A stretch of 45,584 nt of DNA from an uncultured archaeon. Lineage in GTDB: Archaea; Nanobdellota; Nanobdellia; Pacearchaeales; GW2011-AR1. The stretch is taken from assembly GCA_902385655.1 (NCBI GenBank), contig CABMGO010000002.1:1-45584 (forward strand), in the 5' to 3' direction. The notes under the pieces are model-generated. The model did not search any database and was not told the DNA's origin. It saw only the letters and a list, made by a program, of their open reading frames with translations. Positions within the stretch are counted from its first letter, which is position 1; each line of letters begins with the position of its first letter. Made by a program: the position numbers and the translations under genes. Shown here one piece after another: positions 15,654 through 39,481 of the stretch.

Positions 15654-16784
15654 CTAGAAATTGTCCCTAACTATTATAGTTCCTCCGCCTAAAACTTTCT
15701 CTTTCTCATATAATACTACTGCTTGGCCATCTGAAACACCGGTGATCGCTTTGTCTAATGTTAGGTTGAATCTTCCCTTGCTGAAGAGGAGGGTTGCTGG
15801 AAGAAGTTCGCCAACCTGTCTTATTCTTGCTAGAACTTTTGTGATCTTCTTTTTATATTTATTTTTGTCTTCATCTATTAGGTAAAAGTCTTTTATGATA
15901 ATATCTTTTCTGAAATTTAGCGGATGTTCTTCTGGTGCTGCAACGATTGTGTTTGTTTTTGCATCTTTTTTTGCTACATACCATCTAGTGTGGTCTTGTC
16001 CATCTTGTCCTGCCAAGGTGTATGAAATTTCTATTCCAAATCTTGGGCCAATTCTCTGACCTATAGTATAATAAAAAATACCATCGTGCTCTCCGATTTG
16101 TTTTCCTGTCGGATCAAGAATCTTTCCTTTTTTAGGTTTTATTTTCTTTTGTAAAAAATCTTTTAAGTTTATTTTTCCGATAAAACAAATTCCAACTGTG
16201 CCTTTCTTGTTATAATTTGGGAAATCTTTTCTTTCAGCTATTTTTCTGATTTGCTTTTTTGTGTAATCTCCTATTGGGAAAAGACATTTTGCAAGTTCTT
16301 TTTGTTTTATTGTATAAAGAAAATAAGATTGGTCTTTTGATTCATCTTTTGCTCTTAGTAACTCATATTTGTTTGTTTTTTTGTTATATCTTTTTCTTAT
16401 ATAATGGCCTGTTGAGATGAAATCGCATCCTAATTTTTTTGCTGCTTTTAGCATTAGTGGGAATTTTATTTCTTTATTACAGTCAATATCTGGGTTTGGA
16501 GTAATTCCTTTTTTGTATTTCTTGAACATTTCATCGACAACTAATTTTTTGTATTCTTTTTCAAAATCTAAAGTGATGAGTTTTATTCCAAGTTTTCCTG
16601 CGACTTTTTCTGCAAATCTTCTTTCTTCTTTCCATTGACATTCTCCTGTAATTTTATTTTTTGTATCGCTCCAGTTTTTCATAAATGCGCCAATTACTTC
16701 GTAACCTTGTTTTTGTAAGAGCATTGCCGCAATAGAAGAATCAACTCCACCAGACATTCCGAGCAATACTTTCTGCCTTACCAT
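15654..16784 (-). CDS. mnmA: tRNA (5-substituted) 2-thiouridine-34 synthase MnmA, bacterial type
   Basis: About 376 residues. The PP-loop GMSGGVDSS near the start binds ATP. Catalytic cysteines are visible in TPNPDIDCNKEIKF and GTVGICFIGK. YTIGQRIG and the C-terminal beta-barrel with GVSDGQAVVLYEKEKVLGGG complete the family pattern. MnmA adds sulfur to C2 of U34 in tRNA-Lys, -Glu and -Gln. The sulfur-relay partners (IscS, Tus) are not in this window. I prefer ATG 16784 (MVRQKVLLGMSGG) over 16829, as it starts just before the conserved strand and overlaps the upstream membrane gene by only 7 bp. The usual archaeal route is Ncs6/NcsA, so the gene suggests transfer from bacteria. Confidence 0.93.
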   Translation of the reverse strand: MVRQKVLLGMSGGVDSSIAAMLLQKQGYEVIGAFMKNWSDTKNKITGECQWKEERRFAEKVAGKLGIKLITLDFEKEYKKLVVDEMFKKYKKGITPNPDIDCNKEIKFPLMLKAAKKLGCDFISTGHYIRKRYNKKTNKYELLRAKDESKDQSYFLYTIKQKELAKCLFPIGDYTKKQIRKIAERKDFPNYNKKGTVGICFIGKINLKDFLQKKIKPKKGKILDPTGKQIGEHDGIFYYTIGQRIGPRFGIEISYTLAGQDGQDHTRWYVAKKDAKTNTIVAAPEEHPLNFRKDIIIKDFYLIDEDKNKYKKKITKVLARIRQVGELLPATLLFSKGRFNLTLDKAITGVSDGQAVVLYEKEKVLGGGTIIVRDNF

Positions 16785-17095
16785 GTTTTTATGAGAATAT
16801 TTCCTATTTCGAGACAAATAAATATCCATCCTAAGAAGTTAAACACATTTCTATGCACTAAAGATGTTACTGCTATAATTACTACTAGGCCGATAACTGC
16901 TACAACTGTAATAATCTCTATGATTCTCTTATGATCAATAAAATGATACAAAATAAAGCATAGTAAACCAATCCAGAATAGAATTAGAATTATCGAAGTG
17001 TTTAGTAAAGTTTGAAAAACTTTGTCTGTTATTGCCGAGACTATAAAAAATGCTGCTGCGATTCCTATGAACCAAACGTCTGATAAATATTTCAT
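16778..17095 (-). CDS. Small four-helix membrane protein
   Basis: 105 residues with about four hydrophobic segments (for example WFIGIAAAFFIVSAI, IILILFWIGLLCFILYHF, IITVVAVIGLVVIIAV and FNFLGWIFICLEIGNILI). No family is recognised. A TATA-like box at 17116-17123 is 28 nt upstream. It overlaps the mnmA start and is likely co-transcribed with it; no functional link is evident. Confidence 0.65.
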   Translation of the reverse strand: MKYLSDVWFIGIAAAFFIVSAITDKVFQTLLNTSIILILFWIGLLCFILYHFIDHKRIIEIITVVAVIGLVVIIAVTSLVHRNVFNFLGWIFICLEIGNILIKTW

Positions 17096-20572: not shown

Positions 20573-22006
20573 ATGAACGAATTTGTAGAAAGAAAGGATT
20601 GGGAAGGGAAAGATCAGAAGAAGCCGACGAGGACGATCTCTGGTGTTGCGCCGGTTTCAGTTATGGTTCCTCCTAGACGTTGTCCTCACGGGGTTTGTGC
20701 TTATTGTCCTACTTTTGATAATGCTTCACAAAGTTATACTCCTGAAAGTCCAGCTGTTATTAGGGCAATTTCACTTGCTTATGATCCAAAAAGGCAAGTC
20801 GAGGCGAGATTGAAGTCTTACAATGCGATGAAACACCCTACTGACAAGATTGAGTTAATTATTATGGGCGGAACTTTTATGGGTTTTCCTAGGGATTTTC
20901 AAGTTGATTTTGTAAAGAAATGTTATGATGCGATGAATGGTTTTGATAGTAAAAGTTTGCAAGAAGCTAAAAAGGCAAATGAGAAAGCGAAAAATAGGTG
21001 TGTTGCACTTTGTATTGAAACTCGGCCAGATCATTGTAGCGAACAACAAATTTCGGACATGCTTTCTTGGGGAACAACAAGAGTTGAATTAGGAGTTCAG
21101 ATTTTGGATGATAAAATTTACAAGAAAATTAACCGAGGACATAGTGTTAGGGACGTTGTTGAAGCGACTGAGAGATTAAAGAAGGCTGGTTTCAAACTTG
21201 GTTATCATATGATGCCTGGTTTGCCAGGAAGTACTCCTCAAAAAGATGCGAGAGTCTACAAGCAAGTTTTTTCTTCTGATAAGTTTAAGCCAGATCAAGT
21301 TAAAATTTATCCATGTCAAGTTATCAAAAATACTGGAATTGAAAAATGGTTTTACGAAAGAAAGTTTGTTCCTTATGATGAAAAAACTGTTAGAGATTTA
21401 CTTGTTAAAATGTTGAAAGCAACCCCAAGATATTGCAGAGTTATGAGAATTATGAGAGAGATTCCTCAAAGATATCTTGTTGCAGGTTTGACGAAGATTG
21501 ATTTGAGAAAAGATGTTGAGGAGTATATTAGAGATCAATCCTCAAAGGATCATCCTGCTGGACGTAAAATTAAGATAAATGAAATAAGATTTAGGGAGAT
21601 TGGTTTTGCTTTGAGAGACAAGAGAGAAATTAAACCTGAAACTATTAAGATAAAGACAACAAAATATTCTGCTTCACATGGAAAAGAATTTTTTATTGAA
21701 GCAGTTGACTCAAAAGATAATCTTTATGGTTTGTTAAGATTAAGATTGGAGAAGGATAAAAAAACACCGAGTATGGTTAGAGAGCTTCACGTTTATAGTC
21801 CTGCTTTAAATTTGGGTGAAAGAGAGGAAACTAGTTTTCAACATATTGGGCTTGGAAAGAAATTAATGGCTGAGGCAGAAAAGATTGCTAAAAAATTAGG
21901 TTATAAAAAAATCCGAGTTATTTCTGGTGTCGGAGTTAGAGAGTATTATAAGAATTTAGGATATAAGGTTGATGAAAATAATGTTTATATGGTAAAGGAC
22001 TTCTGA
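20573..22006 (+). CDS. elp3: tRNA uridine-34 carboxymethyl synthase Elp3 (radical SAM/GNAT)
   Basis: 477 residues. The N-terminal part is radical SAM with RRCPHGVCAYCP (C-x4-C-x2-C, 4Fe-4S), followed by ELIIMGGTFMGFP, CIETRPDHC, RVELGVQ and the GYHMMPGLPGS segment. The C-terminal GNAT domain ends with QHIGLGKKLMAEAEKIAKK and VGVREYYKNLGY. Archaeal Elp3 forms cm5U34 from acetyl-CoA and SAM. The N-terminal tRNA-binding region is very short: conserved TRTISGVAPVSVM begins at residue ~19 rather than ~75, and an in-frame stop at 20540-20542 rules out an upstream start. It pairs functionally with the Trm9-like and MnmA proteins. Confidence 0.93.
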   Translation: MNEFVERKDWEGKDQKKPTRTISGVAPVSVMVPPRRCPHGVCAYCPTFDNASQSYTPESPAVIRAISLAYDPKRQVEARLKSYNAMKHPTDKIELIIMGGTFMGFPRDFQVDFVKKCYDAMNGFDSKSLQEAKKANEKAKNRCVALCIETRPDHCSEQQISDMLSWGTTRVELGVQILDDKIYKKINRGHSVRDVVEATERLKKAGFKLGYHMMPGLPGSTPQKDARVYKQVFSSDKFKPDQVKIYPCQVIKNTGIEKWFYERKFVPYDEKTVRDLLVKMLKATPRYCRVMRIMREIPQRYLVAGLTKIDLRKDVEEYIRDQSSKDHPAGRKIKINEIRFREIGFALRDKREIKPETIKIKTTKYSASHGKEFFIEAVDSKDNLYGLLRLRLEKDKKTPSMVRELHVYSPALNLGEREETSFQHIGLGKKLMAEAEKIAKKLGYKKIRVISGVGVREYYKNLGYKVDENNVYMVKDF

Positions 22007-29171: not shown

Positions 29172-29522
29172 TTAATGCATTGTATCTGCGATTAGTTTTA
29201 AAGTTTCCGTTCTAGTATCCGTTCTTTTACCTTTTTCGTCTAAGAAACAATGTGCAAAATATTTCAAGTCTGATAATACTATGTCTGCTGTGTGATAATC
29301 TTCTTTTTCTATTGCTTCTGAGAATGCTTTTGTCCTTCTTGAGAAATAATTTTCTCGGACTACTCGTGGTTTTCCTAAAATTAAATCGCTTAATTCTTGT
29401 GCTTCTTCAAATGCGAGAGGATAGCCAAGGTCTGAATCATCTCGAGTCCATTGACCAAGAACTCTGTTAGTTTGTCTAAGTTTGTCAAAAAGTTCGTCTA
29501 TATCTAACTCTTCGATTGCCAT
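29172..29522 (-). CDS. Hypothetical helical protein
   Basis: 116 residues, predicted all-helical (DIDELFDKLRQTNRVLGQW, FEEAQELSDLILGKPR, AFSEAIEKEDYHTADIVLSD). No family recognised. ATG 29522 is chosen because TTTTAAAC on the minus strand starts 28 nt before it; the upstream in-frame TTG 29534 would sit too near the box. Confidence 0.58.
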   Translation of the reverse strand: MAIEELDIDELFDKLRQTNRVLGQWTRDDSDLGYPLAFEEAQELSDLILGKPRVVRENYFSRRTKAFSEAIEKEDYHTADIVLSDLKYFAHCFLDEKGKRTDTRTETLKLIADTMH

Positions 29523-29567
29523 AGCTTTAATCAATACTGCTTGTTTAAAAGGATTATTGTAATGAAG

Positions 29568-30782
29568 TTATTCTTTAGAAAAACGTTCGAGAATTGCAAA
29601 AAATTCTTTGGAGTCCATGACCTTGTCTACAGATGTTAATCCTCTTTGTATTGAGAATTTTTTAAATGCGATTGGATTAAATCCTCGTTTTCTTAGTGAG
29701 ACTAGTGTTGGGAGTTTTTCATCTTCCCACCCCGAGAACTCTCCCGATTCTATTGCGGCTTTAATATGTCTTTTTCCAAGCTTTAGATCAGAGAATTTTA
29801 TTCTTCCCATAAAAAATGTCCAAGGATATGGCTTGTTAAAAATTTCAAAAATCATTTTTTGTCTTTCTGCGTTGTCATGATGATCTTTGCCTCTGATTAC
29901 GTGCGTCATTCCTAGCTCCATGTCATCTACAGAGACTGATAAATTCATCAATGGCCAAACTCTGTATTTTGTTCCCTGTTTTGGATGTTCTTTAAGTGAG
30001 ATTCTTGCTAGGGGGAAATCTCTCATTGCTGGATTTTTATGTTGCATATTTGATTTAAATCTCAAAACTGCTTCTCCCTCTGCGTATCCTTTTTTGTCTA
30101 ACATCTTTTGCCATCTTTTTTCTTGCTCTTTATTATCTAAATCTCTACAAGGGCAATTTTGCATTTTATCTGCGTATTTTAATTTAAAGTCTTCTTGAGA
30201 GCAGGTACAAACATACGCTGCATTTTTTTCTATTAGTTTTTTGGCGTAGGAGTAGTAAAGTTCTAATCTCTCTGACTGAATTATATACTCGGTGACATTT
30301 CCGAATAGCCAATCGCAATCTTCTTTGATTGTTTGGTATGCATTTTTATCTGTTTTTTCGGGGTTAGTATCTTCTATTCTTACATAAAACTTTCCGCCGT
30401 ATTTTTCTACGTAAAGTGAAGAAATTACATTTGAAATTGCATGGCCTACGTGAAGTGCTCCGGACGGGGCAGGTGCAAACCTCATAACTACTCCTGTTTT
30501 TGGAACATCTGGCAATTCTGGAAGTTCGTCTTCTGCTCTAACTTTTCTATGAGAAATTAGCTTTTCAGTTTCTTCTAGTTCTTTTTTTTGTTCGTCTAAT
30601 GACATAGAGTTGACTTTCTTTACAACTTCATTGATTTTTGGCATAATGTTCTTTACTTCTGCTTTGTCTAATCCTTCATGGAATAGGGGGTTAAGAACTG
30701 CTCCAGATTGACATTTTCCTTCATGTTCTACTGCATTTTTTAATGCATAAGCAAGCATTTTCTTTTCGATGTTTTCTATCAT
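29568..30782 (-). CDS. gltX: Glutamyl-tRNA synthetase, archaeal type, without anticodon-binding domain
   Basis: 404 residues. A helical N-terminal region (~1-95) as in archaeal GluRS is followed by the class I core: the HIGH-like PSGALHVGHAISN, YVRIEDTNPEKTD, the Cys-rich insertion CTCSQEDF...NCPCRD, VDDMELGMTHVIRGKDHHDN, and KLGKRHI in the KMSKS position followed by ESGEFSGWEDEKLPTL. The protein stops ~60 residues after that loop. Usual archaeal GluRS is ~550 residues, with two C-terminal beta-barrels that bind the anticodon; these are missing, and no continuation is found in any frame before the next gene. It charges tRNA-Glu and possibly tRNA-Gln for amidation. Confidence 0.88.
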   Translation of the reverse strand: MIENIEKKMLAYALKNAVEHEGKCQSGAVLNPLFHEGLDKAEVKNIMPKINEVVKKVNSMSLDEQKKELEETEKLISHRKVRAEDELPELPDVPKTGVVMRFAPAPSGALHVGHAISNVISSLYVEKYGGKFYVRIEDTNPEKTDKNAYQTIKEDCDWLFGNVTEYIIQSERLELYYSYAKKLIEKNAAYVCTCSQEDFKLKYADKMQNCPCRDLDNKEQEKRWQKMLDKKGYAEGEAVLRFKSNMQHKNPAMRDFPLARISLKEHPKQGTKYRVWPLMNLSVSVDDMELGMTHVIRGKDHHDNAERQKMIFEIFNKPYPWTFFMGRIKFSDLKLGKRHIKAAIESGEFSGWEDEKLPTLVSLRKRGFNPIAFKKFSIQRGLTSVDKVMDSKEFFAILERFSKE

Positions 30783-31160: not shown

Positions 31161-31580
31161 TTACCAGCTAAATCCGCCCTGGCTAGATGAAGAATCCGAA
31201 TTAGAAATCCCTGCCTTCCTTTCTAGCAATTCAATTCTTTGTTCCATCTTGTACAACTTTGTATCAAGATCCGAAATTTGCATCGATATTTTTCTCAATT
31301 CTTCGCCCGAATCTGAACTCGATGATGAGCTTGAAATTGGTGTTGAAGGGGTGTCAAAAAAGCTAAATCCCGAAGATTGCGTTTGGGGTGTTGTTGGAGT
31401 AAGTGCTGGTTTTGATGGAGATTCTAAAGCTTTAAGTGGAAGTTTTGGTTTTCTTGTCAGGTCTACAAAACCATAACCATCTTTGGGAACAAATTTTCTA
31501 CCATGAGGAAGATTGACACTTCTTTTTTGAACTTCACTTAGCTCAACCATATCTTTTTTCTTACTAAATAACATATTCAT
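31161..31580 (-). CDS. Hypothetical protein with low-complexity linker and coiled coil
   Basis: 139 residues. A basic N-terminus (KKKDMVELSEVQKRSVNLPH) with YGFVDLTRKPKLPLKAL is followed by a Pro/Ser/Thr-rich linker including a run of eight Ser, and a C-terminal coiled coil (QISDLDTKLYKMEQRIELLE). The tail SSSSQGGFSW is again flexible. The layout suggests an adaptor or scaffold: N-terminal peptide, disordered spacer, oligomerising helix. Function unknown. Confidence 0.6.
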   Translation of the reverse strand: MNMLFSKKKDMVELSEVQKRSVNLPHGRKFVPKDGYGFVDLTRKPKLPLKALESPSKPALTPTTPQTQSSGFSFFDTPSTPISSSSSSSDSGEELRKISMQISDLDTKLYKMEQRIELLERKAGISNSDSSSSQGGFSW

Positions 31581-33843: not shown

Positions 33844-35745
33844 ATGTCTGATAAAAAAGAGTATAATGCAGAGAATATTAAGGTTCTAGAAGGTCTTGAA
33901 GGAGTTAGAAAAAGGCCGGCGATGTATATTGGAAGTACGGGCAAAGAGGGTTTACATCATCTTGTTTATGAAATTGTTGACAATTCTGTTGACGAAGCTA
34001 TGGCTGGTGTTTGTGATACAATTACTGTGACCTTGAATGCTGATGGTTCTGTTTCTGTTGAAGATAATGGAAGAGGTATGCCTGTTGACAAGCATCCAGT
34101 TTACAAGGTATCTGCTATGGAAGTTATTGTTACAAAGTTGCACGCTGGAGGAAAGTTCGATAAGGGTTCCTATGCAGTTTCTGGAGGTTTACACGGAGTA
34201 GGTATTTCGGTAGTAGCTGCTCTATCCAAAAAGATGAGAGTTGAGGTAAAGAGAGAAGGAAAAATCTATATGCAGGAGTATAAAATTGGAACTCCTCAAA
34301 AAGAAGTAGAAGTTATTGGGAAGTACGATGGAAAAGAAACAGGAACTAAAGTTACTTTCATGCCTGATGATACTATTTTTTCTACAACAACTTTCGATTT
34401 TAATTATCTGTCTACTAGATTTAGAGAAATTGCTTTTTTGAATGCTGGATTGAAAATTATTTTTATTGATGCTAGAGAAAAAGAAAAGAAAGAGGAATTT
34501 CATTTTGCTGGAGGAATCTTAGAATTCGTAAAATGGTTGAATAGGACAAAACAATCACTGCATTCTAAACCTGTTTATTTTAAAAAAGAAGCTGAAGGTT
34601 TAGGAATTGAAGTTGCCATTCAGTATAACGATTCTTATAACGATAATATTCAAAGTTTTGTAAACACGATTAACACAATTGAAGGTGGAACTCACGTTGC
34701 TGGTTTTAAGACTGCTTTAACAAGAGTTATCAATGATTATGCTGAAAAGAAAGGCATTATTAAGAAAGGTGAAAAATTAGAAGGAGATGATGTAAGAGAG
34801 GGTTTGACTGCAGTTATTTCTACAAAAGTTAAGGAACCTCAATTTGAAGGTCAGACAAAAACGAAATTAGGTAATTCTGAAATTAAAGGAATTATGGATT
34901 CTGCGACGACGGCTGCACTTGGAGAATTCTTTGAAGAGAATCCGACTGTTGCAAATACTATTGCTAAAAAAGCAAGCGAAGCATTAAGAGCTAGGGAAGC
35001 TGCAAAGAAAGCTAAAGAACTTGTTAGAAGAAAGAATGCTCTTGGTGGCGGGGGACTTCCAGGTAAATTGGCTGATTGTTCTTCGAAGAAAGCTGAAGAA
35101 ACTGAATTGTATATTGTAGAGGGTCAGTCTGCTGGTGGTACTGCTAAAGGAGCAAGAGATAGAGAATGTCAGGCAATTCTGCCATTGAGAGGTAAAATCT
35201 TGAATGTTGAGAAATCAAATCCTGCTAAGGCACTTGCTTCTGAAGAAATTGCAAACCTAATGACTGCAATTGGAACTGGTGTTGGTGATGGTTTCAAAAT
35301 GGAAGAGTTGAGATATGGAAAAATTATTATTATGACTGATGCGGACGTTGATGGTGCGCACATTAAGACTTTACTTTTGACGTTGTTTTACAGATATACT
35401 CCTCATTTGATTGAAGCAGGACATGTTTTCGTTGCTGTTCCTCCACTTTTCAAATTGAGAAAAGGACAGAAAGATGTTTATGTTTATAATGAAGAAGAAT
35501 TGAAGAAGGCATTGAAGGATACTTCTGGAAAACCTGAGGTAAGTCGTTTTAAGGGTCTGGGAGAAATGAATGATGAACAACTTTGGGATACAACTATGAA
35601 TCCTAAGACTAGAATTTTGAAACAAGTTTCTATTGAGGATGCAGTTGAAGCTGATGAAACCCTTTCTGTTTTAATGGGTGATGCAGTCGAACCAAGAAGA
35701 AAATTCATTGAAGAAAATGCGAAGATGGCGGAGGTTGATTTGTAA
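33844..35745 (+). CDS. gyrB: DNA gyrase subunit B
   Basis: 633 residues, bacterial-type GyrB. The GHKL ATPase has GLEGVRKRPAMYIGST, EIVDNSVDEA, EDNGRGMPV and GGLHGVGISVV. A transducer domain follows, then TOPRIM with VEGQSAGGTAKGARDR, LPLRGKILNVEKSN and TDADVDGAHIKTLLL, and the C-terminal RFKGLGEMN. With GyrA it forms A2B2 and introduces negative supercoils using ATP. Gyrase in archaea is generally taken to be of bacterial origin. It is followed 1 bp later by a small membrane-protein gene and then the rest of the operon. Confidence 0.96.
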   Translation: MSDKKEYNAENIKVLEGLEGVRKRPAMYIGSTGKEGLHHLVYEIVDNSVDEAMAGVCDTITVTLNADGSVSVEDNGRGMPVDKHPVYKVSAMEVIVTKLHAGGKFDKGSYAVSGGLHGVGISVVAALSKKMRVEVKREGKIYMQEYKIGTPQKEVEVIGKYDGKETGTKVTFMPDDTIFSTTTFDFNYLSTRFREIAFLNAGLKIIFIDAREKEKKEEFHFAGGILEFVKWLNRTKQSLHSKPVYFKKEAEGLGIEVAIQYNDSYNDNIQSFVNTINTIEGGTHVAGFKTALTRVINDYAEKKGIIKKGEKLEGDDVREGLTAVISTKVKEPQFEGQTKTKLGNSEIKGIMDSATTAALGEFFEENPTVANTIAKKASEALRAREAAKKAKELVRRKNALGGGGLPGKLADCSSKKAEETELYIVEGQSAGGTAKGARDRECQAILPLRGKILNVEKSNPAKALASEEIANLMTAIGTGVGDGFKMEELRYGKIIIMTDADVDGAHIKTLLLTLFYRYTPHLIEAGHVFVAVPPLFKLRKGQKDVYVYNEEELKKALKDTSGKPEVSRFKGLGEMNDEQLWDTTMNPKTRILKQVSIEDAVEADETLSVLMGDAVEPRRKFIEENAKMAEVDL

Positions 35746-35746
35746 A

Positions 35747-36004
35747 ATGGATATTTTGATTGCGAATATTTTTGGCTGGGTAGGCTTGTTTCTCTTACTT
35801 TTGGATTACTTTCTATTGGCTACAAAGAAAATAGCTTCTTCTTCTTTTATTTATAGTTTTATTAATTTTATGGGTGGAGTATTTATTATTATTAACAGTT
35901 TTGTTTTTAAAATTTGGCCTGTTTTTGTTTTAAATATTTTTTGGGCTAGTATTGGTTTGTTTGGAATGTTTAAATCAACTAAAAAAGGAGTTAAGAAAAA
36001 ATGA
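35747..36004 (+). CDS. CBU_0592-like small membrane protein
   Basis: 85 residues with three membrane helices: IFGWVGLFLLLLDYFLLA, SFIYSFINFMGGVFIIINS and WPVFVLNIFWASIGLFGMF. The W-x-G...Y-F-L and W-P-x-x-x-L-N-x-x-W pattern matches the CBU_0592 family of unknown function. It starts 1 bp after gyrB stops and its TGA overlaps the next ATG by 4 bp. An upstream in-frame start inside gyrB is rejected. Confidence 0.75.
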   Translation: MDILIANIFGWVGLFLLLLDYFLLATKKIASSSFIYSFINFMGGVFIIINSFVFKIWPVFVLNIFWASIGLFGMFKSTKKGVKKK

Positions 36005-36249
36005 ATGAACAAAAAGTTGTGAAAGTTTATTTCTGTCCTGCTTGTAGAGGTAAAGATGTTGGATATGTTTTTAGATTGAGAAATTTATTTGGGCTTGTTC
36101 CTCAAATGAGATGCAAGAAATGTGGATTTACTGGAATGACATTTCCGATATTAGCTGTTCATGAAAAACATTTAAAGGATGCAAACAAGAAAATTAAATC
36201 TAAAAAGAAAGGGAGAATTGTTATGAGACATTCTCAGGAAAGGAGATAA
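36001..36249 (+). CDS. Zinc-ribbon protein
   Basis: 82 residues. YFCPACRG and MRCKKCGF give a C-x2-C...C-x2-C zinc ribbon over residues 12-41, followed by a basic helical tail (KKIKSKKKGRIVMRHSQERR) that could bind nucleic acid. It overlaps the preceding membrane gene by 4 bp and is followed by the DUF5654 gene, all within the gyrase operon. Partner unknown. Confidence 0.75.
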   Translation: MNEQKVVKVYFCPACRGKDVGYVFRLRNLFGLVPQMRCKKCGFTGMTFPILAVHEKHLKDANKKIKSKKKGRIVMRHSQERR

Positions 36250-36257
36250 TTTGTAAA

Positions 36258-36557
36258 ATGGCAAAAGAAGATAATTTAAGTAAAATTGAAAGAAGGGAAG
36301 TTGGGAAGATGATTGCAAGTAAAGCATTGTCTCATGCTAGTGTAATAAAAAGCGAATTTAAAAAGCAAGTTTCAGGTGCGATTATTGCTGCATTTGGTTT
36401 AATTATTGCTTTATCTTGGAAAGATGTGATAACTGAATGGGTAAACAAGTTGAATGTTGCAGGTTATGGTCTTCTGGCTTCTGCGGTTGTTATGACTTTG
36501 GTTTCTGTTGTTGGAATTTTAATTATAAGTAAATGGGCGAACAGAGGTAATCAATAA
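36258..36557 (+). CDS. DUF5654-family membrane protein
   Basis: 99 residues with two membrane helices (AIIAAFGLIIALSWKDVI and GYGLLASAVVMTLVSVVGIL) after a charged N-terminal helix. The FKKQVSGAIIAAFGLIIALS motif with W-K-D fits the archaeal DUF5654 family, of unknown role. Its TAA overlaps the ATG of a 44-codon ORF that spans the intergenic element. Confidence 0.72.
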   Translation: MAKEDNLSKIERREVGKMIASKALSHASVIKSEFKKQVSGAIIAAFGLIIALSWKDVITEWVNKLNVAGYGLLASAVVMTLVSVVGILIISKWANRGNQ

Positions 36558-36691
36558 TGAAACTCTTTTCAATCGTAGTCGCCAATTATGTTAGCGGTAA
36601 CGCGGTAAACTTGTTACCTTGCAATTTTTCAACTAAACTAAACCATTGTGAAAATATTGCAAAATGGGCAAAATCTGGAGAAAATAAATAA
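36557..36691 (+). CDS. 44-codon ORF bridging the gyrase-operon gap
   Basis: ATG 36557 overlaps the DUF5654 stop (TAATG), and the ORF's TAA overlaps the next gene's ATG 36691 in the same way. The peptide, MKLFSIVVANYVSGNAVNLL and onward, is not recognised, and codon use differs from neighbours (GTC, GCC, AGC, GCG). A palindromic element occupies 36596-36666 of it. Either it is a real coupled small gene, or translation passes through a mobile palindrome that happens to be open. I consider the second at least as likely. Confidence 0.35.
   Translation: MKLFSIVVANYVSGNAVNLLPCNFSTKLNHCENIAKWAKSGENK
36596..36666 (+). repeat. Palindromic element, copy A
   Basis: Two stems in series: GGTAAC-(11 nt)-GTTACC (36596-36618), and TTGCAAT (36619-36625) with ATTGCAA (36656-36662), extended by TTTTC/GAAAA. 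It is followed by AATGGGC. The second stem is shared with copy C and the first with copy B, with compensatory changes in both. A 7-codon ORF starts at the terminal ATG (36664) and stops 3 nt before the next gene. Confidence 0.65.
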
Positions 36692-36966
36692 TGGCAATTA
36701 GTATAAGAAGATTAATGGAAATGTCCGATGAAGAAATAGCACGAACTTTTGATAAGTCTATTGGAAAATGTGCTTATGAAAGATGTGGTCGAGATGTGAT
36801 GAGTTCAGAAGAGCATAGAGTTGTTCCTGCTGGAGTTTATCATGAGGATTGTTATTTTGATGACTGGGGAGAGATGATTGAACAACATCCAATTTGCAAT
36901 CCTTGCAGAAGGGGAATCGGAATTGTTATGGTCGATGAAAATGATTTGGAGGTTAGAGTAAATTAA
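36691..36966 (+). CDS. Small treble-clef/LIM-like zinc protein
   Basis: 91 residues. KCAYERCG (C-x4-C), YHEDC (H-x2-C) and ICNPC (C-x2-C) supply metal ligands in an order reminiscent of LIM or other treble-clef fingers, with WGEMIEQHP between. The N-terminal helix ([18 protein letters not shown]) could be a dimer or partner surface. It ends 1 bp before the gyrA ATG, so it is likely co-translated with gyrA; a role with gyrase is only inferred from position. Confidence 0.65.
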
Positions 36967-36967
36967 A

Positions 36968-39481
36968 ATGGCAGACGAAAAAGACGAAAAGAAGAAAGTT
37001 GAAGCAGGTATGACAAAAGAAGAGCTTGCTGCAAGAAGAGAAGATTTCAAGAAAAATGTTGATGCTAGGGAGCTTGTGAATGCTGAAATTTCTAACGAAA
37101 TGAGAACTGCCTTTATCAATTATGCAATGTCCGTTATCATGGATAGAGCACTTCCAGCTGCTGAAGATGGTTTGAAACCCGTTCACAGAAGAATTTTATG
37201 GGCAATGCATGAGTCTGGATTACAACATAACAAACCAACAAGAAAATCCGCTAAGATCGTGGGAGAGACAATGGGTAATTACCACCCTCATGGCGACGCT
37301 GCAATTTATGAAACTTTAGTTAGAATGGCTCAAGATTTCTCATTAAGATATCCTCTTGTAAAAGGACAGGGTAACTTCGGTAGTATGGATGGAGATCCTG
37401 CTGCGGCTATGAGATATACTGAAGCTAAGATGTCTAAGATTTCTGAACAATTAATGGTTGACATTGAAAAAAATACTGTTGAGATGATGCCTAACTTTGA
37501 TAATTCTTTACAAGAACCTAAGCTTGTTCCTGCAAAATTGCCTAATTTATTACTTAATGGTGCTTCAGGTATTGCAGTAGGTATGGCAACTAATATGCCT
37601 CCTCACAATTTGAATGATGTTTGTGACGCAACTTTGGCTTATATTGATAATAATGAAATAACTATTGAAGAATTGATCAAGATAATAAGGGCTCCTGATT
37701 TCCCAACTGGCGGTTATATCTCTGGACAAATAAAACAAATGTATATTGAAGGCAAGGGAAGACTTGTTTTGAAAGGTAGAACAAAAATTGAAGATGGAAA
37801 TAAACCTTCTATTATAATTACCGAAATACCTTATCAGGTTAACAAAGCTACTCTTGTTGAGCAAATTGCTGAATTGGTTAAAGAAAAGAAGTTACCTGAC
37901 GTTACAGATATCCGAGATGAATCTGCGAAAGGAAAAGTAAGAGTTGTTGTCGAATTAAAGAGGGGAACTGAAGCAAGTTTTACTTTGAATAGACTTTTGA
38001 AATTTACAAATTTGCAAACTACTTTTGATGCTAATATGCTTGCTCTTGTCGATGGTCAACCTAGACAGATGGGTCTTAAACACATGTTAGAGGTTTATGT
38101 TAACCATAGAAGAAAAATTGTTAGGAAGGCAACCGAATTTGATTTGGACAAAGCTGACAAGAGAATACATATTGTTGAAGGTTTATTAGTTGCTCAGAAA
38201 AATATTGATGCTGTTGTCAAGTTAATTAGAGCTTCTAAAGGCAAGACTGAAGCTGCTGAAGAATTGAAAGAAAAATACAAACTTTCTGAAAAACAAGTTG
38301 AAGCTATTTTGGAAATGAAGTTACATCAACTTACCTCTCTTGAGCATGATAAGCTAGTTGGTGAAGAAAATGAATTAAAAGAATTGATTGAGAGATTCAA
38401 GAAGATATTGGCTGATGAAAAAGAAATTTTGAAGATTATTAAGAAAGATCTTAATGAGTTGAAGAAAGATTATGGCGATGAGAGAAAGACAGTTGTTGTT
38501 TCAAATATCAATGAGGAATTTGAAGAAAAAGATCTTGTAGACAAGAAAGAAGTTGTTGTTACAATTACTGATAAGGGTTATGTTAAGAGAATGGATTTGA
38601 AACAATACAAGGAACAGAATCGTGGTGGAAAAGGAGTTATTGGTACTGAATTAGCTACTGGCGATTTTGTAAAAGATTTGTTGATGTGTTCTACTCATGA
38701 TTATTTACTTCTTTTCACAAATAAAGGAAAGTTGCATTGGTTGAAAGCGTATGAAGTTCCGGAGATTCAGAAATATGGTAAGGGAAAAGCATTAGTGAAT
38801 ATGCTCGAATTGAAAGATGAGGTTGTTACTTCAGTTATTTCTGTGAAGGAATTTAAGGATTTCTTGATGATGTTTACAAAAGAAGGAACTGTGAAGAAGA
38901 TTTCTCTTGAAGAATTTTCTAATCCTAGAAAGGGTGGAATTAAAGCAATTGATTTGGAAGGAAAGACAGATTTACTCGTTGCTGTTAAACCTATAAAAGA
39001 ACATCAAGAAGTATTGCTTGTTTCAAAGGATGGCCAGGCCTGCAGATTTAATTCGGATGATGTAAGACCGACTGGAAGAAATGCTTACGGAGTTATTGGA
39101 ATGACTTTAGAAAACAAAGATGAAGTTGTTTCTGCTGAAGTTTTACCAATTGAAAATAAGGAGAAGTTCTCTATTTTAACAATCTCTAAGAAAGGTTATG
39201 GTAAGAGAAGCGAGATTGAAGATTACAGATTAACTTCTAGAGGTGGAAAGGGAGTTATCAATTTGGCTGTTTCAGACAAGACTGGAGAAATAATAACGTC
39301 TCAATCTGTTGTTGAAGAAGATACAATAATTGTTTCTACAACTAAGGGAATTGTTATTAGAACACCAGTTACAGATATAAGAGTAATGGGAAGAGCAACA
39401 CAGGGCGTTAGAATTATCAAACTTGACGACGGAGATTCTGTTGCTGATATGGCTCGAGTCGCCGATGTGGTTGAAGTGTAA
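36968..39481 (+). CDS. gyrA: DNA gyrase subunit A
   Basis: 837 residues. After a charged ~35-residue N-terminal extension, [38 protein letters not shown] and [10 protein letters not shown] (active-site Tyr) mark the breakage-reunion domain. The C-terminal beta-pinwheel contains QNRGGKG, a variant of the GyrA box (QRRGGKG) needed for DNA wrapping and negative supercoiling, and further blade repeats such as SRGGKGVI and [10 protein letters not shown]. It is the last gene of the gyrB-gyrA operon, with an operon gap of about 1.2 kb holding small genes. Confidence 0.96.

Follow-up and report, generated by a model that had tools for sequence, protein, structure and literature searches.

The DNA analysed here (the window) comprises 45,584 nucleotides, positions 1 to 45,584 of contig CABMGO010000002.1 in GenBank assembly GCA_902385655.1 of an uncultured archaeon (Pacearchaeales; GW2011-AR1), and encodes on its minus strand a glutamyl-tRNA synthetase (GluRS) of archaeal type; the plus-strand frame at the same place is full of stops. 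The predicted protein, P0001 (Table 1), retains everything through the helical subdomain and has neither of the two C-terminal anticodon-binding barrels, a domain loss that the initial annotation had proposed and that is borne out by the sequence, by a structural model and by the 86 genomes within the order that share it.

Domain anatomy of the synthetase

PF00749 (residues 98-392, E 1.3e-64) is the sole Pfam match in P0001. As the anticodon-domain models PF03950 and PF20974 were both detected in all three full-length relatives scanned, their absence from P0001 is real. The NCBIfam models of archaeal GluRS (PRK04156/gltX_arch) are matched over their first two thirds only (3-401 of 567 and 2-392 of 560 positions) and with scores below their cut-offs (460 vs 516 bits and 378 vs 402 bits). 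The scores of the glutaminyl-tRNA synthetase (GlnRS) model (173 bits, cut-off 425.8) and of the GluQRS models (70-114 bits, cut-offs of 250 and above) also stay below threshold. The best solved relative is the nondiscriminating GluRS of M. thermautotrophicus (3aii, 553 aa), with the alignment confined to 3aii residues 4-392.

The AlphaFold model of P0001, computed from an input alignment of 20 sequences, has a mean predicted local distance difference test (pLDDT) score of 92.5. It superimposes on 3aii over residues 87-398 (Z 35.9, 300 residues, 1.5 Å) and on E. coli GlnRS (1gtr) over residues 7-336 (Z about 35), and Foldseek agrees with this structural alignment. In chicken GluRS, the catalytic part is described as joined to the proximal and distal barrels via a helical subdomain (PMC9643514). 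The model of P0001 ends where this subdomain ends in the solved GluRS and GlnRS structures, and both C-terminal barrels are therefore missing. The catalytic motifs named in the initial annotation are both in place, and 66 residues follow the KMSKS-like loop, close to the 60 or so that it had estimated; many barrel-less relatives carry LSKR or LSTT at the position of this loop. The four invariant cysteines of the core presumably form a metal site.

The motifs and the helical subdomain are conserved among barrel-less enzymes, which are 51-67% identical to P0001. Between barrel-less and full-length enzymes, eight sites (e.g. W321) separate the groups at the thresholds chosen, and the barrel-less group has the more basic catalytic part (mean net charge +15.4 vs +10.6), both comparisons being uncorrected for ancestry.

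Table 1. Position of the synthetase gene, its domains and motifs, and its upstream neighbour in the window.
Feature	Position	Strand	Remarks
Barrel-less archaeal GluRS gene	29568..30782	minus	404 aa plus stop; protein P0001
Archaeal N-terminal helical extension, residues 1-95	30498..30782	minus	3aii aligned from its residue 4; modelled with four helices
Catalytic Rossmann core into which the acceptor-binding domain is inserted, residues 96-330	29793..30497	minus	PF00749 at 98-392; superimposes on 3aii and E. coli GlnRS with Z 35-36
HIGH-like motif HVGH, residues 111-114	30441..30452	minus	Sequence; both histidines (H111, H114) unchanged throughout alignment A1
Cysteines C192, C194, C210, C212 (CxC...CxC)	30147..30209	minus	All four present in every one of the 20 A1 rows
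KMSKS-like loop KLGKR, residues 334-338	29769..29783	minus	Sequence
Stem-contacting helical subdomain with the terminal helix, residues 339-404	29571..29768	minus	End of P0001, at the expected start of the proximal barrel
Conserved upstream neighbour, small protein	31161..31580	minus	Assigned to no Pfam family; occurs next to full-length and one-barrel GluRS as well

Distribution across the order

The survey covered 200 genomes from this order, and a GluRS match was obtained in 179 of them. Forms were assigned by the length of the open frame, with split genes checked and sequences inspected, which yielded 86 barrel-less genomes (frames of up to 441 aa), 10 with one barrel (469-483 aa), 82 with both barrels and one (G120) in which the gene is cut short. 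In 60 of the 82, the GluRS match lies in a frame that is full-length on its own; the other 22, where the gene is cut by a contig end or the listed matches do not give its frame, were assigned from a match to a barrel profile (A2), and in 18 of them this match falls within a frame 555-578 aa long. The best 80 hits in named genomes divide into 68 barrel-less, six one-barrel and five full-length enzymes and one cut by a contig end, and the record titles of many of them read Candidatus Pacearchaeota, Nanoarchaeota or archaeon. The barrel-less genomes are small drafts of about 0.4-1.3 Mb. Barrel loss is thus a trait of a lineage and no assembly error. Two archaeal-type GluRS (L151, L153) lie on contigs titled Patescibacteria or bacterium, which are probably mislabelled bins.

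Searches for a second synthetase or a detached barrel

The window genome (G000, 836 kb) contains a single match to the GluRS family at E<=10. PF03950 was not found in it, with the control search positive in archaea, so that the search for a free anticodon-binding domain suggested by the initial annotation returned nothing. Profile A2, which covers the two-barrel region and was built from 20 full-length rows, matches in 94 of the 200 genomes: all 60 that are full-length by frame, the 22 called full through it, nine of the ten one-barrel genomes, one genome without a catalytic match (G116) and two of the 86 barrel-less genomes, in which the matches are weak and lie elsewhere (G057, E 6e-4; G061, E 0.009, with stops). 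It missed the one-barrel enzyme of G089, and a lone proximal barrel could therefore escape it.

All 20 genomes with a completeness of 90% or more and a contamination of no more than 5% have a GluRS; nine are positive for A2 and 11 are barrel-less, and no second GluRS gene or barrel domain was found in these 11. A second gltX, which the initial annotation had named as evidence against its proposal, was thus found neither there nor in the window genome. Nine genomes of the survey gave two GluRS matches, and seven of these are consistent with one gene: the matches are two segments of one frame in G013, G130, G131 and G166, identical overlaps of contig ends in G082 and G090, and non-overlapping contig-end pieces in G067. 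The other two (G073, G089) hold distinct sequences.

Origin of the short enzyme

A tree of 69 rows was calculated from the shared residues 1-395. Five full-length rows, four of them titled Woesearchaeota, lie outside, followed by a one-barrel branch (support 96/93); the innermost clade (support 98/93) holds 39 barrel-less rows and one one-barrel row. In the one-barrel proteins, some 80 residues are missing from the centre of the C-terminal half. Their model (mean pLDDT 92.1) aligns structurally to 3aii over 87-553 and ends in a small beta-barrel tail that corresponds to 3aii 501-553, the last 53 residues with the last strands, the sequence score of this tail being weak when taken alone. This would be expected had the distal barrel, which sits within the proximal one, been excised first. 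The barrels thus appear to have been lost in two steps, the distal one first and the proximal one thereafter.

Two one-barrel enzymes (L025, L026) are placed in a distant clade, and distal loss therefore probably occurred at least twice. Single loss as the sole scenario was not adopted, as the one-barrel row L057 nests among barrel-less rows, combining a body of the short type with a one-barrel tail that is 68% identical to that of L055, a one-barrel enzyme of its own genus (g56). In the same genus, barrel-less L046 and L055 are 84% identical over residues 1-95 and 59% over the catalytic part. As both forms occur there with mosaic similarity, recombination within this genus is likely and blurs the last step. 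Separately, two genomes of genera with short GluRS, G160 (L332) and G180 (L331/L069), have very divergent full-length GluRS on long branches, which are probably replacements.

Many loci of all three forms share the same neighbour genes around GluRS, which, together with the tree order of full, one barrel and none, argues that the short gene descends from a full one. The small upstream protein is found near GluRS in 47 of 67 barrel-less loci, and a pilin-like ORF in 56 of the 67, in 53 of them directly adjoining GluRS on its downstream side (L103-L182). The term pilin-like reflects a reading of the N-terminus, Pfam giving no significant match; the ORF also occurs near some one-barrel and full-length genes and is absent from the window. 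Both neighbours were considered as specific partners of the short GluRS and rejected, since they flank the other two forms too. The initial annotation had further described a normal gene downstream and had named close relatives with a full-length orthologue at this locus as evidence against its proposal. An ORF is indeed present downstream (29172-29534, minus strand, 120 aa), albeit with a TTG start and no Pfam match. The closest relatives are all short, while more distant members of the family are full-length or one-barrel among the same neighbour genes; this makes the short gene a descendant of an ordinary GluRS and does not undo the finding. Elsewhere in the window, genes for DNA gyrase B and A lie near each other on the plus strand (33844-39481), here in an archaeon.

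tRNA substrates and proposed mode of recognition

In archaea, Gln-tRNA-Gln is reported to be made from Glu-tRNA-Gln by a nondiscriminating GluRS (ND-GluRS) and the amidotransferase GatDE, which form a complex (PMC9499178). The window genome has tRNA-Glu with the anticodons UUC and CUC and tRNA-Gln with UUG and CUG. The D-arm pattern GTNYAGNGGYCAAGNAY, which was derived from these tRNAs afterwards, occurs in all four isoacceptors and in no other tRNA found in this genome. Among the tRNAs retained for counting, G1-C72 is present in all tRNA-Glu and A1-U72 in all tRNA-Gln. GatE is present in all 41 genomes searched; that of the window genome (L191:1492-2949; G000:C5, about 69283-70740) has 485 aa, no GAD domain and no middle insert (profile positions about 264-386).

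We interpret P0001 as the apparently sole GluRS of a Pacearchaeota-like DPANN archaeon, derived from a two-barrel ND-GluRS by stepwise loss of the barrels and charging both tRNA-Glu and tRNA-Gln without reading the anticodon, and put the probability of this reading as a whole at roughly 0.7. P0001 would glutamylate both tRNAs, with the catalytic and acceptor-binding domains gripping the acceptor end, the retained helical subdomain holding the L from inside on the D-stem side, and the anticodon left unread; GatDE would then convert Glu-tRNA-Gln into Gln-tRNA-Gln. The loss of anticodon reading would be tolerable because the enzyme must accept tRNA-Glu and tRNA-Gln anyway, because these tRNAs share a D-arm pattern absent from the others found in the genome, and because archaeal GatDE itself sorts tRNA-Gln, of which it is reported to recognise the D-loop and A1:U72 (PMC9499178). 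Anticodon domains are not shed generally in the window genome, since the threonyl-tRNA synthetase (ThrRS) encoded in the same window keeps its own.

The tRNA-Glu sequences differ with the form of the enzyme. Per genome, C13-G22 was found in 19/27 barrel-less, 1/7 one-barrel and 1/30 full-length cases, and G73 in 22/27, 0/7 and 5/30; A37, counted by sequence, was found in 29/32, 7/7 and 10/32. The genomes behind these counts are no random sample, as the first BLAST query was the tRNA of the window genome and a model was then built from the 16 tRNA-Glu so found; the tRNA-Gln of G165 and G018 and the tRNA-Glu of G010 and G138 were left out as out of register, and G021 was not parsed. The raw association is strong and may reflect co-evolution of tRNA-Glu with barrel loss, which we treat as a lead only. 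A broader version of our reading, to which we would give clearly less than even odds, holds that throughout the lineage Glu/Gln identity has moved off the anticodon to the acceptor stem, the discriminator and the D-arm alone, that the tRNA-Glu set (C13-G22, A-U at 12-23, G73) has changed accordingly, and that the intermediates record how anticodon reading was taken step by step out of a genetic code in use.

Several observations weigh against the proposed anticodon-independent charging by a sole GluRS. The window genome, in which no GlnRS or second GluRS was found at E<=10, is 84.7% complete. G073 (L342/L343; 86% complete) holds two distinct partial GluRS, both at contig ends and 78% identical in the overlap at the amino acid level, and G089 (L338/L059; 70% complete) holds two distinct sequences with 67% amino acid identity in the overlap, namely a one-barrel gene and a contig-end N-terminal piece nearer the barrel-less enzymes. 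The GluRS of both drafts are of the same family as P0001, and the drafts may be mixed bins or contain real second copies. The middle, AspRS-like insert of GatE is missing in 38 of the 41 genomes (exceptions G001, G104 and G053), whatever the state of GluRS, and the sorting role of GatE may therefore differ from that of the GatDE studied; a short GatE as a partner lost together with the barrels was considered and rejected, as the insert is also gone in genomes with full-length GluRS. On the side of the tRNAs, U13.G22 is kept in 8/27 barrel-less genomes, G160 combines C13-G22 with a full-length GluRS, and the shifts are confounded by ancestry, with two phylogenetically independent pairs only. 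A37, a base within the anticodon loop, would if anything count against a mode wholly independent of the anticodon. The anticodon-loop identity elements U34, U35, C36 and A37 are those of E. coli. They are described as strong determinants of Glu identity (PMC9976931), which makes a barrel-less GluRS surprising, and the same source attributes the ability of ND-GluRS to charge both tRNAs to the anticodon-binding domain.

Three further observations concern tRNAs and the wobble base. The tRNA-Glu(CUC) gene of the window genome (G000:C3:223951-224123, L190) has an anticodon-loop intron of roughly 100 bases, and several relatives have tRNA-Glu introns too. The window, although archaeal, carries a gene of MnmA type, the family responsible for U34 thiolation in tRNA (15654-16829, minus strand), which would act on tRNA-Glu, tRNA-Gln and tRNA-Lys at the base that the short GluRS presumably ignores. 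A radical SAM plus GNAT protein (20573-22006, plus strand) is likely, as we assume, Elp3, another U34-modifying enzyme.

Alternative explanations

The barrels could have been replaced in trans, by an unrelated RNA-binding protein or GatDE that docks on the short GluRS and supplies recognition of the anticodon or of the tRNA overall. The conserved neighbours surrounding the gene and the difference in A37 between the GluRS groups would fit such a partner. The same neighbours, however, also flank the one-barrel and full-length genes, and the downstream one is missing from the window; GatDE would aid recognition of tRNA-Gln and not of tRNA-Glu; and no free barrel domain was detected, though with a profile that missed one lone proximal barrel (G089). 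We consider this replacement unlikely. Decay in a host-dependent cell, with a weak and error-prone truncated enzyme that is tolerated or topped up by the host, appears very unlikely: the small draft genomes presumably belong to symbionts, and the domains of aminoacyl-tRNA synthetases that discriminate tRNAs are reported to diverge in intracellular bacteria (PMC11020763), but the conserved catalytic motifs and helical subdomain, and the anticodon domain retained by ThrRS, are at odds with it.

About as improbable, if not more so, is a catalytic-domain paralogue in the manner of bacterial GluQRS, which would glutamylate a modified base or another acceptor while the genuine GluRS either escaped assembly or is imported. 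P0001 does share the architecture of GluQRS, a catalytic core without an anticodon domain, and the GluQRS models give it some score, yet the archaeal GluRS models score 378-460 bits, the same gene neighbourhood holds full-length orthologues, and the most complete genomes all have this GluRS family, 11 of them in barrel-less form and with no second gene or barrel; to our knowledge, archaea do not make queuosine at position 34. Since neither the window genome nor its most complete relatives yielded another GluRS or a GlnRS for the essential charging, recognition through the acceptor and D-arm is favoured over a side function of this kind. An artefact of sequencing, assembly or annotation has a negligible chance: the genomes are metagenome-derived drafts, but the end point is the same in 86 of them, and the genome-wide search for barrel remnants with stops read through returned nothing beyond the two weak matches, in line with the initial statement that no frame had been lost.

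Relation to known enzymes and significance

By sequence and fold, P0001 is nearest to the archaeal ND-GluRS, with which it shares the N-terminal extension, catalytic core, acceptor-binding domain and helical subdomain; it differs from them in lacking both barrels and in scoring under the family cut-offs. With GlnRS and eukaryotic GluRS of class Ib (1gtr; chicken EARS1, 7wru) the core fold is common up to GlnRS residue 336, and their two-barrel plan is that of the full-length relatives; P0001 has no barrels and is scored higher by GluRS than by GlnRS models. GluQRS (YadB), described as a GluRS paralogue that modifies queuosine in tRNA-Asp (PMC3542578), resembles P0001 in its catalytic architecture without an anticodon domain, but P0001 is the only GluRS found, is of archaeal type and has retained both the N-terminal extension and the helical subdomain. 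The one-barrel GluRS found here in the same lineage are orthologous to P0001 and lack the distal barrel; in contrast to P0001 they retain the proximal one, an intermediate stage that has apparently arisen at least twice.

No report of a barrel-less GluRS of this kind was found among open-licence papers, which suggests that P0001 is a variant of a known enzyme that is apparently new to print. The barrels of GluRS and GlnRS are treated in one account as a late addition to the catalytic core (PMC3927822), and the two enzymes are standard examples of anticodon readers. If our reading is correct, a natural, lineage-wide and apparently essential barrel-less GluRS, very compact for an archaeal enzyme, would test how little of a tRNA a synthetase must see, and matched natural enzymes and tRNAs, instead of engineered fragments, would test whether the acceptor half suffices for accurate coding; living relatives with one-barrel intermediates add to the value of such a test.
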